Origin: Actinomycetota bacterium | Lineage (GTDB): Bacteria > Actinomycetota > Acidimicrobiia > Acidimicrobiales > Acidimicrobilacustridaceae | Assembly: GCA_005787345.1 (NCBI GenBank) | Contig: SYBH01000062.1 | Location: 1-35,828, forward strand | DNA length: 35,828 bases | Direction of reading: 5' to 3' | Shown here: piece by piece, positions 633 to 10,275 of the stretch | How the letters are laid out: the number at the start of each line of letters is the position of its first letter | How positions within the stretch are numbered: position 1 is the stretch's first letter | The notes under the pieces: model-generated | The model's database searches: none | What the model was told of the DNA's origin: nothing | The model's input: only the letters and a program-made list of their open reading frames with translations | Made by a program: the position numbers and the translations under genes

Positions 633-1967
633 ATGGAACGTCAGCAGGATTACGTGCTCAGGACCGTCGAAGAGCGTGGGGTTCGCCTCATCCGCTTGTG
701 GTTCACCGACGTGCTGGGCCAGCTCAAGTCCGTGGCCATCTCACCGGCCGAACTCGAGAACGCCTTTGAAGAGGGTCTCCACTTTGATGGTTCGGTGATC
801 GACGGGTTCAGCCGAGTACAGGAATCGGACGTGCTCGCCAAACCCGACCCCAACACCTTCGAGATTCTCCCGTGGGGGAAGGGCTCGGAAATCTCCGGCC
901 GCATGTTCTGCGACATTCTCAACCACGACGACACCCCGTTCGAGGGCGACCCTCGCCAGGTACTCAAGCGCAACCTCGATAGGGCACACGACCGCGGCTT
1001 CTCATTCATGACCGCGCCCGAAATGGAATTCTTCTACTTCGCCGAGGGCGATCCTTCGAAGCCGCTTGTTCCGCTCGACTCCGGTTCGTACTTCGACCTC
1101 ACCACTGCCGACGTTGCCAGTGACCTTCGCACGCGCACGTTGCTTGTTCTTGAAGCAATGGGCATTCCGGTTGAGTACTCGTTTCACGAAGATGCACCGA
1201 GTCAGCACGAAATCGATCTGCGTTACACCGACGCACTCACCATGGCCGACAACATCATGACGTTCCGCCTCATCGTGAAAGAGATCGCGATGGAGCAGGG
1301 CGTGTTTGCATCGTTCATGCCCAAGCCTCTTGGCGGTGTGCAGGGTTCGGGTATGCACACTCACATGTCGCTGTTTGAAGGCGACGAGAATGCATTCCAT
1401 GAACCTGGCGATCCCGTTGGATTGTCAAAGGTCGCGCGCGGTTTCATCGCTGGTTTGTTGCACCATGCGCCTGAGATCACCGCAGTCACCAATCAGCTCG
1501 TGAACTCCTACAAGCGTTTAGTGTCTGGTTACGAAGCACCGGTGTACATCACGTGGGCACGCAACAATCAGTCATCTCTTGTTCGGGTTCCGGTCACCAA
1601 GCGAGGCAAGCAATCGTCAACTCGTATCGAATACCGCGCACCCGATCCGGCGTGTAACCCATATCTCGCGTATTCAGTCATGCTCGCCGCCGGCCTCAAG
1701 GGAATCGAAGGTGGCTACGAATTGCCGCCCGAAGCGGCAGCGAACGTTTTCGAACTCACTCCCGAGCAGCGCGCTGCCGAAGGCATCCGCCCTCTTCCGC
1801 AATCGCTTTCGGAATCACTCGATGTCATGGAGAGCTCGGAACTCGTTGCCGAAGCACTTGGCGAACATATTTTCGAATGGTTCCTGCGCAATAAGCGTGC
1901 GGAATGGTCCGATTACAAGGCTCAGGTCACGCAGTTCGAACTCGATCGGTACCTTCCGGCTTGGTAA
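633..1967 (+). CDS. glnA2: Glutamine synthetase family protein, GlnA2-like
   Basis: A 444-residue type I glutamine synthetase paralogue. Visible are the N-terminal FDGSVIDGFSRVQESD segment (about 51-66), the metal-site motif MTAPEMEFF (126-134), GSGMHTHMSL near 250, NQLVNSYKRL near 300 and the RIEYRAPDP substrate loop. The C-terminal part reads YELPPEAAANVFELT, without the tyrosine that GlnE adenylylates in GlnA. The overall pattern matches actinobacterial GlnA2, some members of which are gamma-glutamylpolyamine synthetases, so the substrate may be a polyamine rather than ammonia. The ATG at 633 is preferred over an in-frame start 12 codons upstream because homology begins here. It ends 5 bases before the GlnR-like gene, so the two are probably cotranscribed. 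Family is certain; substrate is not. Confidence 0.93.
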   Translation: MERQQDYVLRTVEERGVRLIRLWFTDVLGQLKSVAISPAELENAFEEGLHFDGSVIDGFSRVQESDVLAKPDPNTFEILPWGKGSEISGRMFCDILNHDDTPFEGDPRQVLKRNLDRAHDRGFSFMTAPEMEFFYFAEGDPSKPLVPLDSGSYFDLTTADVASDLRTRTLLVLEAMGIPVEYSFHEDAPSQHEIDLRYTDALTMADNIMTFRLIVKEIAMEQGVFASFMPKPLGGVQGSGMHTHMSLFEGDENAFHEPGDPVGLSKVARGFIAGLLHHAPEITAVTNQLVNSYKRLVSGYEAPVYITWARNNQSSLVRVPVTKRGKQSSTRIEYRAPDPACNPYLAYSVMLAAGLKGIEGGYELPPEAAANVFELTPEQRAAEGIRPLPQSLSESLDVMESSELVAEALGEHIFEWFLRNKRAEWSDYKAQVTQFELDRYLPAW

Positions 1968-1972
1968 CCATC

Positions 1973-2653
1973 ATGGAACCAATCCTCATCTTCCCCGATC
2001 CTCCACCCCCGGAACTCGCACAAGCACTCGACTTGTCCGGGTATCCGTGGAAGTCCGCAAGTGACGAACTCGCCGCGTCCCGAATCGAACCCGAAAGCGG
2101 TTGGGGTGGCGCAATCATTTGTGCCTATCTCGACCCTGAGCGCGCGTTCGCTCTGTGCCGCGCACTGCGCAAGCGCGATGTTCCACTTGAACCACTATTG
2201 CTCTTAGTAAGCGGAACGCAATTGGGCGACCTCGAACTGCGCGACGACCTCTACGACGATTTCTGTTTGGCGCCATTCCACCCGCGCGAACTCGAAGCCC
2301 GTCTCAAGCATTTGTATTGGAATACCGGAGCAGGCGTCCGACCCGAACTCGTTGAGTACGGCGAACTCGTGCTCAACCTTGAGACCTATCAGGCCGCAAT
2401 CGGTGGCGCACCACTCGATCTCACCTACATGGAATACGAACTACTGAAGTTCCTTTCCTCGAACCCAGGCAAAGTGTTTACTCGTGAAACTCTGCTTAGC
2501 CGTGTGTGGGGCTACGAGTACTACGGCGGCGCCCGCACTGTCGATGTTCACATCCGACGTCTACGCGCCAAGCTCGGCGAACATCACGCCAACCTGATTC
2601 AAACTGTTCGCAGTGTTGGCTATCGCTTCGGCCAATCGCGCTGGGGTGCTTAA
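1973..2653 (+). CDS. glnR: GlnR-like OmpR/PhoB-family nitrogen response regulator
   Basis: A 226-residue regulator with an atypical receiver domain (about 1-118) and a C-terminal winged-helix domain (about 125-220). The DNA-binding part (LDLTYMEYELLKFL, VWGYEYYGGARTVDVHIRR, VGYRF) closely follows actinobacterial GlnR, which activates glnA, amtB and other nitrogen genes without a cognate kinase. The receiver is eroded: at the end of the third strand (IICAYLD, 48-54) the phospho-acceptor position is occupied by C50/A51, and acidic residues near the N-terminus are not in the usual place. Streptomyces GlnR also works without phosphorylation. Position directly after a glutamine synthetase gene supports the nitrogen role. 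It ends before a bidirectional terminator. The symbol rests on motif similarity and context. Confidence 0.85.
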   Translation: MEPILIFPDPPPPELAQALDLSGYPWKSASDELAASRIEPESGWGGAIICAYLDPERAFALCRALRKRDVPLEPLLLLVSGTQLGDLELRDDLYDDFCLAPFHPRELEARLKHLYWNTGAGVRPELVEYGELVLNLETYQAAIGGAPLDLTYMEYELLKFLSSNPGKVFTRETLLSRVWGYEYYGGARTVDVHIRRLRAKLGEHHANLIQTVRSVGYRFGQSRWGA

Positions 2654-2714
2654 GCACGCTTCGTCACCCATCGCGTTCACAACACTCTGCAAAACGAAAC
2701 ACTCTGCAAAAACG

Positions 2715-2744
2715 AAACACGCCGCCCCGAAGGGCGGCGTGTTT
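2715..2744. terminator. Bidirectional intrinsic terminator
   Basis: A perfect 13-base-pair stem (2715-2727 with 2732-2744) with a CGAA loop. It starts with AAA and ends with TTT, so it works in both directions. It lies between the converging glnR-like and cold-shock genes and can end both. Confidence 0.9.
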
Positions 2745-2761
2745 GCGAAACGAGCATGGTC

Positions 2762-2962
2762 TCAGACAGGACGAACGTCCTGTGCCTGATCGCCCTTCGG
2801 GCCACTGGTGACCTCGAATTCGACGGCTTGACCTTCCTCGAGTGAGCGGTAACCCGAGCCGCTGATCGCGCTGTAATGCACGAACACGTCGGGGCCTCCC
2901 TCACGTGAGATGAAGCCGAAGCCCTTTTCAGCGTTGAACCACTTGACGGTACCGGCAGCCAT
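2762..2962 (-). CDS. Cold-shock domain protein (CspA family)
   Basis: A 66-residue single-domain nucleic-acid-binding protein of the usual CspA length. It starts [15 protein letters not shown], which includes RNP1 (KGFGFI), followed by RNP2 (VFVHY near 40-44) and the C-terminal [13 protein letters not shown] strand. Such proteins melt RNA secondary structure, and in actinomycetes they are often abundant at all temperatures. The ATG at 2962 is preceded by AAAGGGG, a good ribosome binding site; an in-frame start further upstream has no homology. It has its own promoter at 3027-3056 and shares the terminator at 2715-2744 with the glnR-like gene. Confidence 0.97.
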
Positions 2963-3026
2963 TCCGGGACCCCTTTCTGTCCTGCGGGGTCGGAACACCT
3001 TCCCAGCACCTTCTTAACGAATCGGC

Positions 3027-7001: not shown

Positions 7002-7847
7002 TCAGTGACGAGATGTCAACTGCGCAGTGACATACACCGATTCTCCATCGGTTGACCACAACGCAACATCGAGAACGCCATCGGCAACTCGATATGCAAT
7101 CGTCAATGGCATCGCGGCGATAACAACTCCGTGATCAATCGCATCACGAAATTCCACTTCCGCACGTAGCGAACCCGCGGGATCGAGATCAATCAGTTCG
7201 CGCGCACGCACGCGCTCAAGGGTTTGCTCAACAACTTCCCATGCCACTGCGTTGTTCACATGATTCAGCACATCGAGATCGGTGACACGCGGCCACCACG
7301 GCATCGTGTGGACGTCGTCATCGCCCGGAATAACTGGTTCGTGTACTTGGCGCGCGGTGACCTCCCGACCGCCCGAAGGTTCGGTGTAGGTCGCAACGAA
7401 CTCTGCGGGCAATGTCTTTGGCCGACCGGTAACGGGGTCGAGATGCACCCACAACGTCACGGCTTCTACCGAGCCGCCAACTGCGCCAGCCATCGACACC
7501 CGCCGTTCGGCCCAGCGATTGCCCATCCCCGAACAGAACGTGGCCAGCGCAAGATCCTCACTGTTACGCGGGGCCTGATGCTGTTCGATCAATGTGCGGC
7601 GCACCACCCAAGCCCGAGCCTCGAGACTCCCAAGATCATCGGAATCATCGGTGGCGACGTCCTGCAGATAGCGGGCTACCGCATCGAGACGGAGGCGCCC
7701 GGTGGCATCGACATCACCCAATCGAACACGACGCTCGCGCCGGAAAACTCGACCCAAACTCGGAATGGGCAGCACCCGGCTCGCGCCGTTTTCGCGCTCG
7801 GTTCGCCGGGTCGAACCCTTCTTCCCCGTCGATTCCACATCTCCCAT
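7002..7847 (-). CDS. Acyl-ACP thioesterase (FatA/FatB-like, double hotdog)
   Basis: A 281-residue protein with two hotdog folds. The first covers about 35-150 (RRERRVRLGDVDATGRLRLDAVARYLQD, RTLIEQ). The second (about 170-281) has RVTDLDVLNHVNNAVAWEVVE, which matches the family catalytic D-x-N-x-H block. These enzymes release fatty acids from acyl carrier protein. The start is uncertain: ATG 7847 is chosen because a TAGCGT -10 box lies 8 bases upstream and because the longer in-frame N-terminus (to 8135) is arginine/glycine-rich and unlike the family. It is monocistronic and converges with mrp. Confidence 0.85.
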   Translation of the reverse strand: MGDVESTGKKGSTRRTERENGASRVLPIPSLGRVFRRERRVRLGDVDATGRLRLDAVARYLQDVATDDSDDLGSLEARAWVVRRTLIEQHQAPRNSEDLALATFCSGMGNRWAERRVSMAGAVGGSVEAVTLWVHLDPVTGRPKTLPAEFVATYTEPSGGREVTARQVHEPVIPGDDDVHTMPWWPRVTDLDVLNHVNNAVAWEVVEQTLERVRARELIDLDPAGSLRAEVEFRDAIDHGVVIAAMPLTIAYRVADGVLDVALWSTDGESVYVTAQLTSRH

Positions 7848-7921
7848 GACCAGCGACGCTAGCCCCCGATCCCTTGGCAGGAACGGGAACACGCCGATTT
7901 CCATTAATTCAGTTGACGCGG

Positions 7922-8062
7922 CTATCGCCGGCATGGTTCGGTGGTGTCCATGTTCACGTCTGCCACCACTTCGCGTACTTCGGCCATTCCGGCCTCCGTC
8001 GCGCCTGTGGCGTCGCGCGCCAACGTGACCATTTCCGCCACTTGGTATGCCACCGGGACCAA
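7922..8062 (-). CDS. Possible small protein upstream of the thioesterase gene
   Basis: A minus-strand frame of up to 46 codons, different from the thioesterase frame, with amino-acid composition like a real helical protein (alanine-, valine-, glutamate- and methionine-rich: AYQVAEMVTLARDATGATEA near its start). Possible starts are TTG 8062, GTG 8053 or ATG 8032; none has a good ribosome binding site. It ends with TAG at 7922, 75 bases before the thioesterase start. It overlaps the start of the plus-strand upstream ORF of the whiB leader, and both need not be real. Unrecognised. Confidence 0.28.
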   Translation of the reverse strand: MVPVAYQVAEMVTLARDATGATEAGMAEVREVVADVNMDTTEPCRR

Positions 8063-8109
8063 CGCTTTTACGACTTTCGGTCATAAGCACCCGTCCCGGC
8101 GATCTCTGA
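8047..8109 (+). CDS. Candidate leader peptide (upstream ORF) of whiB
   Basis: A 20-codon frame from ATG 8047 to TGA 8107-8109, rich in proline, leucine and arginine, placed just before two tandem hairpins. Its codons at 8095-8101 (CCCGGCG) are exactly complementary to the left arm of the terminator stem (8146-8152, CGCCGGG). A ribosome finishing this ORF would cover 8095-8109 and allow the terminator; a ribosome stalled earlier would leave it free to disrupt the terminator. No clear ribosome binding site precedes the ATG. Inferred by analogy with whiB7 leaders. Confidence 0.4.
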   Translation: MPPGPTLLRLSVISTRPGDL

Positions 8110-8113
8110 GCTG

Positions 8114-8131
8114 ACGCAGTAACGACTGCGT
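8114..8131 (+). other. Hairpin in the whiB leader
   Basis: A perfect 7-base-pair stem (8114-8120 with 8125-8131) with an AACG loop. It sits between the candidate leader ORF and the terminator, within the region that would be enclosed by the antiterminator pairing 8095-8101 with 8146-8152. Confidence 0.5.
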
Positions 8132-8142
8132 ACATGCACTGA

Positions 8143-8170
8143 GGCCGCCGGGTTCCCCCGGCGGCCTTTC
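8143..8170 (+). terminator. Intrinsic terminator/attenuator upstream of whiB
   Basis: A 10-base-pair G+C stem (8143-8152 with 8157-8166), TTCC loop and a T-rich tail (TTTCTT) on the plus strand only. There is no plus-strand gene upstream for more than 1 kb to which it could belong: mrp ends at 6985 and the region between is minus-strand. It therefore probably ends a short transcript that starts in the whiB leader, that is, an attenuator or a small RNA. Confidence 0.75.
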
Positions 8171-8186
8171 TTCATGTGCGGCCACG

Positions 8187-8262
8187 CCCCCTGTCCATCA
8201 ACCTCCATCCCTCTACCTCTGTCCAACAACCCTCCACCACCAACATCAACCCCATCTGCACT
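8187..8262 (+). promoter_or_regulatory. C-rich, G-poor leader segment (rut-like)
   Basis: About 75 bases between the terminator and the whiB start contain many C and only about three G. Such C-over-G bubbles are typical of Rho utilisation sites and of unstructured leaders. It could add Rho-dependent control to whiB. An in-frame start at 8174 would read through it as a proline/serine/threonine-rich extension, but the ribosome binding site at about 8277-8285 favours the start at 8291. Confidence 0.35.
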
Positions 8263-8290
8263 CCGGTGCACCCACGAAAGGAAAGAACCG

Positions 8291-8635
8291 ATGCTCGCCG
8301 AGACGCTCGACGACATCTCACCGGCCGTCAGGGCCGACGCCGCATGCAACGACCTCAACGCAACGTTGACCGGCGTCTATTTCTCTGAAGAGCTCCAGGA
8401 CATCGCCATGGCCAAGTCGATCTGTTCGACCTGTCCGGTGATCGTCGAATGTCTCGAAGGGGCCATTGAGCGCCACGAGCCATGGGGCGTGTGGGGTGGA
8501 CAAATGTTCATCAACGGAAAGATCCTCGCCACCAAGCGTCGCCGCGGCCGCCCGCCGAAGCTCGCTCGAGCCGAGGATGAGCTGCCCGACATTCCCGTGC
8601 CGGTGCACCTTCAGTCCTGGTTGCGCTCCGCCTAG
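8291..8635 (+). CDS. WhiB-family transcriptional regulator with AT-hook-like tail
   Basis: A 114-residue WhiB-like protein. The four cysteines for the [4Fe-4S] cluster are C19, C45, C48 and C54 (AAC, CSTC, C spacing as in the family), followed by the beta-turn GVWGG (66-70). The C-terminal part has KRRRGRPPK (82-90), an AT-hook-like motif comparable to that of WhiB7. WhiB proteins bind the primary sigma factor and redirect transcription. The ATG at 8291 follows AAGGAAAG at good spacing. The unusually long and structured leader (8047-8290) suggests attenuation control. Which WhiB class it belongs to cannot be fixed without a phylogeny; AT-hook-bearing WhiB proteins may be common in this class. 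Confidence 0.93.
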   Translation: MLAETLDDISPAVRADAACNDLNATLTGVYFSEELQDIAMAKSICSTCPVIVECLEGAIERHEPWGVWGGQMFINGKILATKRRRGRPPKLARAEDELPDIPVPVHLQSWLRSA

Positions 8636-8798: not shown

Positions 8799-9413
8799 AT
8801 GGAACCCGCACCGCTTCCTCCCCAACCCCGATCGGCCATGCGCCGTTATCTCCCGCTCACTGTGGCGGGACTGATTGCCGTGGGTTTCGCAATTGCCCTC
8901 ATCATCTCGATCTCGGGCGGTTCATCGACGACATCATCCGATGTCACCAAGCTCGACCCCAATGCCACGCAACCGCCTGAGCTCGTCATCACGAACGACG
9001 TGGCCGGCACCAGGTTGCCGAACATCTCCTACGTCGCCTTCGATGGTTCGACCAAAGATCTCGCACCAAATGACAAACCACTACTCATCAACGTATGGTC
9101 CTCAACCTGCGTACCCTGCATAACGGAAATGCCAGCGCTCGAAAAGGTGTGGCAAGCCAACCGCAACGACATCGATGTTCTTGGTCTTGATTATCTGGAA
9201 CCTCCCGAACTCGGACAAGCGATGGCCGATCGCACAGGTGTTACTTATCCGCTTGGACGCGACGTCAACGGGTCGATTCTGCGCTCACTCGGTGGAATCG
9301 GACTTCCCTACACCGTCCTTGTGGCATCAAACGGAACCATTCTGGCCACACACTCCGGTGCGCTCACCGAAGCACAGTTCGCCGCACTCGTGAAGACCGC
9401 AACCGGTAACTGA
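8799..9413 (+). CDS. TlpA-like membrane-anchored thioredoxin
   Basis: A 204-residue thiol-disulfide oxidoreductase. An N-terminal anchor (about 16-38, YLPLTVAGLIAVGFAIALII) places the thioredoxin domain (about 65-204) outside the membrane. The active site is CVPC in WSSTCVPCITEMPAL, as in TlpA/ResA proteins that keep apocytochrome c cysteines reduced. The cis-proline region GIGLPYTVLVASNG is also visible. Start ATG 8799 is uncertain; ATG 8838, just before the anchor, is an alternative. The gene ends one base before ccdA, which supplies electrons to such thioredoxins, so the pair likely serves cytochrome c maturation, including the c domain of CtaC. Confidence 0.9.
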   Translation: MEPAPLPPQPRSAMRRYLPLTVAGLIAVGFAIALIISISGGSSTTSSDVTKLDPNATQPPELVITNDVAGTRLPNISYVAFDGSTKDLAPNDKPLLINVWSSTCVPCITEMPALEKVWQANRNDIDVLGLDYLEPPELGQAMADRTGVTYPLGRDVNGSILRSLGGIGLPYTVLVASNGTILATHSGALTEAQFAALVKTATGN

Positions 9414-9414
9414 T

Positions 9415-10275
9415 ATGAACTCAGCGATCGTTTACGCGTTTGGTGTTGGCATGGTCGCAACATTTAATCCGTGTGGCTTCGCGATGCTCCCGGCGTACTT
9501 GTCCTACTTCTTGGGACTCGAGAACGCGAGAGAAACCGAGAGCCGAGCCGACGCAACGGTGATGCGTGCACTCGCTGTTGGTGCCGCAATGACTGCAGGC
9601 TTTGTTGTCGTATTTGGAGTCCTTGGACTCGTCCTTGACCCGATTCTTTCTTCCATTATCGACAAATTGCCGTGGCTCACCATCGTGTTAGGCGTCGTGC
9701 TCGTGATTCTCGGCATTCGCTTGCTCATGGGTCGAGAAATCACCGTGAGTTTGCCAAAAGTTTCAAAAGGCCCCGAAGGGCGAGAGCTCGGATCGGTTTT
9801 CGTCTTCGGCATTTCCTATGCACTCGTATCTCTAAGCTGCACGTTGTCGTTGTTTATTGCTGCGATATCAACCGTGATCGATCAGCAGAACTTCTTTATT
9901 GGTCTTGGCGCATTCATCGCCTATGCACTTGGCATGGGGCTCGTGTTGATCGTTCTCACACTTGCCATCGCACTTGCTCGCCAAGGAGTCGTGAAGAAGA
10001 TGCGCGGCGTACTGCCCTACATCAACCGCATTTCAGGCGTGCTGCTCGTTCTCGCTGGTGTCTACGTGGCCTATTACGGCTGGTACGAACTGCGCGTGTT
10101 GAATGGCAACATCTCAGGCGGCGGCATTGCCGGTTGGATGTTCAATCTCAATGGCCGCATCACCCAATGGATCAACGAAGTTGGCCCCACCCGCATCGGT
10201 CTCATCCTCGGCCTTGTGATAGCGCTCGTTGTGTTCATCGCATTGCTCAGTAAGGCCCGGACCGCCGACAAGTAG
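9415..10275 (+). CDS. ccdA: CcdA-type cytochrome c biogenesis / thiol electron-transfer membrane protein
   Basis: A 286-residue integral membrane protein with at least six hydrophobic segments. It carries the family motif NPCGFAMLPAY near the N-terminus and a second conserved cysteine in SLSCTLSLF, the pair that relays electrons from cytoplasmic thioredoxin to an extracytoplasmic thioredoxin. The start overlaps the tlpA stop region (TGATATG), showing translational coupling. The C-terminal segment beyond residue 220 (GIAGWMFNLNGRITQWINEVG and a last helix) is longer than in minimal CcdA. The stop codon TAG is itself part of a -10 box for the next gene. Confidence 0.93.
   Translation: MNSAIVYAFGVGMVATFNPCGFAMLPAYLSYFLGLENARETESRADATVMRALAVGAAMTAGFVVVFGVLGLVLDPILSSIIDKLPWLTIVLGVVLVILGIRLLMGREITVSLPKVSKGPEGRELGSVFVFGISYALVSLSCTLSLFIAAISTVIDQQNFFIGLGAFIAYALGMGLVLIVLTLAIALARQGVVKKMRGVLPYINRISGVLLVLAGVYVAYYGWYELRVLNGNISGGGIAGWMFNLNGRITQWINEVGPTRIGLILGLVIALVVFIALLSKARTADK

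Follow-up and report, generated by a model that had tools for sequence, protein, structure and literature searches.

A probable translation-coupled attenuator precedes whiB7 across the order Acidimicrobiales

In a member of the order Acidimicrobiales, the leader of whiB7, a master gene of the antibiotic response, very probably acts as a transcription attenuator that is coupled to translation, as in known whiB7/wblC leaders. The promoter elements, uORF and terminator lie within 7903-8174 of the window, by which we mean the whole stretch of 35,828 nucleotides analyzed here, and, judging from sequence comparison, the attenuator is conserved across this large, mostly uncultured order. Such a switch, mediated by an upstream open reading frame (uORF), was reportedly described for whiB7/wblC of Streptomyces and mycobacteria by Lee, Lee and Roe in 2022. 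Uninterrupted translation of the uORF favors a terminator, while drugs or amino acid starvation favor an antiterminator (PMC11550727, PMC13236596); early evidence for attenuation of whiB7 is also available (PMC4128351). The mechanism itself is already known, and what is new is its documentation in the Acidimicrobiales, with co-variation of the pairing segments. The features of the leader and gene are collected in Table 1.

Table 1. Features of the whiB7 leader and gene in the window.
Feature	Position	Strand	Basis
AT-rich box ATTAATTC, directly 5' of the -35 element; probably bound by the AT hook of WhiB7 for autoregulation	7903-7910	+	Motif comparison
-35 element TTGACG	7913-7918	+	TTGAC across leaders
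-10-like element TTCGGT (inferred), 18-nt spacer, weak match	7937-7942	+	Position and similarity in relatives
uORF, 54 codons, MFTSATTSRTSAIPASVAPVASRANVTISATWYATGTNAFTTFGHKHPSRRSLS, apparently leaderless	7950-8114	+	Conserved ORF, codon-position bias, family comparison
Antiterminator segment in the last uORF codons; core CCCGGCG 8095-8101, extension 8103-8106	8093-8106	+	Duplex, co-variation
Spacer hairpin CGCAGTAACGACTGCG, between uORF stop and terminator	8115-8130	+	Folds in window and near relatives
Intrinsic terminator, stem 8141-8152/8157-8168, then T-rich tail	8141-8174	+	Comparison of leaders
Shine-Dalgarno-like AGGAAAG 5' of whiB7	8279-8285	+	Sequence reading
whiB7 orthologue, 114 aa, AT hook RGRPPK	8291-8635	+	Structure match, reciprocal search, RGRP

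Results

The window derives from the 2.29-Mb draft genome (82% complete) of a freshwater bacterium, and this genome contains seven WhiB genes. The solved structure closest to the protein encoded at 8291-8635 is that of Mycobacterium tuberculosis WhiB7 (64 bits), followed by WhiB1 (34 bits), and a reciprocal search with the matched stretch of M. tuberculosis WhiB7 returned the window gene at 64.7 bits and the next paralogue of the same genome at 35.1. The protein combines an EPWGVWGG motif with the AT hook RGRPPK, and an RGRP AT hook is absent from the other six WhiB paralogues of the genome. Top scores in both directions, together with an AT hook confined to this gene, identify it at the sequence level as the genome's sole WhiB7/WblC orthologue, in agreement with the initial annotation, which had noted a WhiB7-like protein with an AT-hook-like RGRPPK tail. 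An NCBIfam search gave no match. Downstream of whiB7, at 8840-10275, two genes were named by eye, one for a TlpA/ResA-like thioredoxin-fold protein and one for a CcdA-like membrane protein.

For comparison, the proteins of 298 genomes from the order were searched, with a match at 1e-15 in 191 of them. Leaders were taken from 110 species, window included, and supplemented with 16 named loci of the genus and family, five of which duplicate genomes already in the set; the named close relatives comprise Microthrixaceae / Candidatus Microthrix and other Acidimicrobiales assemblies. Three loci (L123, L127, L133) come from public metagenome assemblies titled Bifidobacterium breve. Their whiB7 genes are 75-98% identical to the Microthrixaceae gene, and the labels are very probably wrong.

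Of the 110 orthologous leaders, 104 contain a T-tailed hairpin of 10 or more pairs (7 of them G-C) 5' of whiB7, versus 7 of 330 dinucleotide shuffles, and a terminator is visible by eye in three further leaders outside the 104 counted (L041, L093, L097). In the window, the leader folds far more stably than its shuffles (z = -5.9). Here, a core of 10 pairs (8143-8152/8157-8166) is lengthened by A-U and G-U pairs, and the T-rich stretch extends to 8174. The strong plus-strand terminator previously placed at 8143-8170 is present with a stem at 8141-8168, as is the hairpin described at 8114-8131, whose exact stem is given in Table 1. This spacer hairpin is generally weak, being stabler than shuffles in 68 of 104 leaders. 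Two leaders from one genus, g57 (L106, L116), contain no comparable hairpin, hence the attenuator has probably been lost there. In the window genome, the other six WhiB genes all lack such a hairpin. No Rfam family scored above its gathering score for the leader. A sub-threshold match of 8129-8180 to mir-769, a family of animal microRNAs (22.6 bits against a gathering score of 57), covers only the terminator hairpin and is due to chance.

Every one of the 119 leaders (114 distinct) with a located terminator stem contains an ORF that is 30 codons or longer and stops 10-40 nt short of this stem; the same criterion is satisfied by 17.7% of shuffled leaders and by 4-18% of windows shifted along the same sequences. 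The distance from uORF stop to stem has a median of 26 nt (range 18-34). In the window, the ORF comprises 54 codons with the stop codon at 8112-8114, and, at the sequence level, it is under coding constraint: sites variable within the genus are distributed over codon positions 3, 1 and 2 as 14, 11 and 4, and, for the final 29 codons, as 7, 1 and 2. The initial annotation had instead assigned the sensing function to a 20-codon ORF at 8047-8109. This string exists as an open frame from ATG to TGA, with its end only 5 nt from the conserved stop, but neither its start codon nor its frame is conserved. Its ATG is absent from relatives such as L012-L015, and six of nine within-genus variable sites are third positions in the 54-codon frame and second positions in the shorter one, i.e., substitutions spare the former frame and not the latter. 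We give virtually no credence to this shorter ORF as the sensing uORF; the originally proposed logic survives because the two stops are so close. On the minus strand, an open frame of 377 codons (7002-8135) extends antisense over the 3' end of the uORF region. The actual minus-strand gene, which looks by eye like an acyl-ACP thioesterase, probably starts near 7848.

The 54-codon uORF encodes a peptide that is partly constant within Microthrixaceae. In L008 and L012-L015, MFT at the start and WY and HKHP(S/A)RR near the end are the same, whereas uORF peptides vary widely between families while the RNA layout stays the same. Relative to nucleotide shuffles, residue content shows only a moderate rise in Ala (14.0% vs 11.3%) and Thr (10.7% vs 6.3%).

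The last codons of the uORF can pair with the left terminator arm. In the window, the duplex between 8093-8106 and this arm has an energy of -20.1 kcal/mol, and the exact complementarity of CCCGGCG (8095-8101) to CGCCGGG (8146-8152) pointed out in the initial annotation is confirmed; by position, antiterminator and terminator pairings exclude each other, as had been claimed. The same annotation had named a lack of conservation of the complementary segments in relatives as evidence against attenuation, and these segments turned out to be conserved. Nearly all leaders contain a segment able to pair with the left arm, usually 27 to 13 nt before the uORF stop. Its mean duplex energy is -17.6 kcal/mol. 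A control segment lying 65-110 nt from the uORF end reaches -12.9 (Wilcoxon p 3e-16) and shuffled segments -13.0, and the leader's own segment surpasses the control in 93 of 104 loci. Co-variation was separated from conservation by drawing one leader per family and exchanging the terminator arms, a design that lessens shared ancestry and does not remove it. Across 32 families, native pairs reached -18.0 and exchanged pairs -16.7, for a z of about -4; over 40 draws, the median p was 5e-4 and the worst 0.005. Clear individual cases are L068, where the arm GCCGCTGGGAGC faces ACTCCCAGCGGG in the uORF, and L019, where GAAGGCCGTCGGG pairs with CCCGACGACCCTTC; in the latter, the arm contains GGCCGTCGGG and the uORF CCCGACG, though the leader's own right arm still reads GGC. 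A second pairing in the window, between 8053-8059 and 8093-8099 (1:2 pairing), does not co-vary between families (z -0.8, p 0.19); this comparison lends no support to a conserved 1:2 protector hairpin, which in classical trp-type attenuators frees the terminator in the absence of a ribosome.

These data bear on the reading of the uORF as a sequence-specific arrest peptide, in which the WY...GHKHPxRR end would stall the ribosome for one ligand or drug, with no general monitoring of translation. Such a peptide would agree with the constancy of HKHP(S/A)RR in L008 and L012-L015 while third codon positions vary. Yet other families with the same RNA layout have widely different peptides, the conserved end overlaps the pairing segment, so that RNA constraint explains part of its conservation, and published whiB7/wblC leaders answer many drug classes as well as amino acid starvation. 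Taken together, we consider a dedicated arrest peptide improbable.

Promoter elements lie 5' of the uORF. TTGAC precedes the uORF stop in 111 of 114 leaders, and an AA-W-[TAG]-S box (form AAWTC) stands 2-3 nt 5' of TTGAC in 69 of 104 leaders; of the 153 remaining TTGAC sites in these loci, one has it. At known promoters, WblC of Streptomyces coelicolor uses the site GAAAWY, positioned 3 nt 5' of the -35 element (PMC7157823), and activation by mycobacterial WhiB7 needs an AT-rich motif immediately before the -35 element (PMC3905903). The corresponding position of the AT-rich box makes positive autoregulation of whiB7 likely. In the window genus and several other Microthrixaceae, the uORF ATG follows the start of TTGAC by 36-37 nt, which probably places the 5' end of the transcript on or beside the ATG; in the window, transcription would start at or next to 7950 and the uORF would be leaderless. 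In many other families, the first in-frame start codon lies 80-100 nt downstream. A strict search of the window genome for the promoter motif gave five matches, one of them at whiB7; the remaining four, on inspection, revealed no clear regulon, and the whiB7 match alone is convincing. Elsewhere, a WhiB7-box-like sequence, AAATTCCGTTGAC, occurs at about position 1501 of L168, within an ABC transporter gene pair (640-3011) that is CydDC-like by eye; this site looks coincidental.

An alternative arrangement would be a plain constitutive terminator behind a functional small protein encoded at 7950-8114, with whiB7 transcribed from a promoter of its own after 8174. The roughly 115 nt between terminator and whiB7 would leave room for this, and the coding constraint on the uORF would be expected of a functional protein. 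However, the left terminator arm co-varies with the uORF end, the layout goes with whiB7 in the order and the phylum alike, the WhiB7-type promoter motif sits 5' of the uORF, and the peptide sequence is not kept between families. In view of this evidence we regard such an arrangement as very improbable and favor attenuation.

To describe how the attenuator might operate, the leader was folded in silico at successive transcript lengths. When the RNA extends to 8153 or 8156 and the right arm is still to be made, antiterminator pairing has a probability of 0.77-1.00 with no ribosome or a stalled one, and of 0.00 with a ribosome on the stop codon, modeled as a mask over 8094-8126 (mask widths being our own choice). 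An early mask over 7948-7976 gives a probability of only 0.30 because the competing 1:2 hairpin forms. For early stalls, the terminator wins by 8163; for a stall at codons 35-40, it has not won by then, and such a stall keeps the antiterminator longest because the 1:2 hairpin, which co-variation does not support, is also blocked. Once the right arm is complete, the finished leader folds as the terminator in every case (P = 1.00). This rules out equilibrium folding as an explanation, and antitermination must therefore be kinetic, occurring during transcription.

In the mechanism we propose, RNA polymerase would start at the autoregulated promoter (7903-7950) and a ribosome would initiate on the 54-codon uORF. 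Running through without interruption, the ribosome would pause on the stop codon and cover 8093-8106, leaving the left arm free to pair with the right arm, and transcription would end near 8174. If a ribosome-binding drug or a shortage of charged tRNA stalled or slowed the ribosome within the uORF, the segment would be free when the left arm emerges; pairing of the two would delay the terminator and polymerase would read on into whiB7. The resulting WhiB7 would activate its own promoter and a resistance regulon. That antibiotics are the signal sensed is probable by analogy with published whiB7/wblC work. Points against this mechanism are the weak -10 element, the folding of the finished leader as the terminator and the dependence of the in silico outcome on stall position. 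On balance, comparison bears out the ribosome-dependent whiB7-type attenuator that was originally suggested, through the uORF (119/119), the hairpin (104/110) and the co-variation (z about -4).

The layout extends beyond the order. Distant WhiB7 orthologues from other families of the phylum present the same succession of uORF, left-arm-pairing segment and terminator, with the stop 19-31 nt from the stem in most, and several genomes of 7-10 Mb in this set have uORFs ending in MWAFRGPEPWSDPA. Pairing is weak in three distant loci (L151, L152, L165), and the same finder detected no hairpin in four (L144, L145, L148, L160). Three of the latter, L144, L145 and L148, belong to GTDB family f7 and represent AT-hook WhiB7-like proteins without a terminator hairpin; in this family, genomes G006 and G134 contain two and three matches, some close together, and L140 and L146 retain the attenuator. 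It is possible that L144, L145 and L148 represent a paralogue that lost the switch.

Discussion

The attenuator occurs with co-varying parts in more than 30 Acidimicrobiales families and is also found in further lineages of actinobacteria, which points to an ancestral origin, within the phylum, of whiB7 control by translation stress. Abundant, mostly uncultured bacteria of freshwater, soil and sludge probably use it for their antibiotic response. The more than 100 leaders also define the essential parts of the switch: a stop about 26 nt from the stem and a pairing segment roughly 11-27 nt before that stop. Among the papers searched, none names both Acidimicrobiia and whiB7.

Among known systems, the whiB7/wblC attenuator of Streptomyces and mycobacteria is the closest. 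Both have an orthologous AT-hook gene, a uORF followed by an intrinsic terminator, a competing antiterminator and an AT-rich box adjoining the -35 element for autoregulation. WblC leaders from Streptomyces-sized genomes have the same geometry, with uORFs ending in MWAFRGPEPWSDPA and a stop 22-23 nt from the stem. The window differs in belonging to another order, in its uORF peptide and in being known here from sequence. A further difference concerns the uORF start, as the mycobacterial uORF begins about 10 nt after a Shine-Dalgarno motif (PMC4128351), whereas that of the window genus appears leaderless. A leaderless start combined with a GHKHPxRR arrest end might cause Microthrixaceae to sense stresses different from those sensed through mycobacterial Shine-Dalgarno-led uORFs, e.g., not inhibitors of 30S initiation, a proposal that we consider conceivable but rather unlikely.

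Two other types of leader share parts of this logic. In the ilvB1 amino acid attenuator of M. tuberculosis (PMC13236596), the position of the ribosome on the uORF likewise selects between antiterminator and terminator; attenuators of that type contain codon runs for the regulated amino acid, whereas here Ala and Thr are only moderately raised. The drug-inducible leaders of antibiotic-resistance (ARE) ABCF genes in Streptomyces (tiaA, are5sc; PMC12421871) also place a uORF, a terminator and an antiterminator 5' of a resistance-related gene, but differ in their very short uORFs, in stalling at the start codon and in the gene family controlled. Kinetic action during transcription is common to the whiB7 switch described here and other attenuators.
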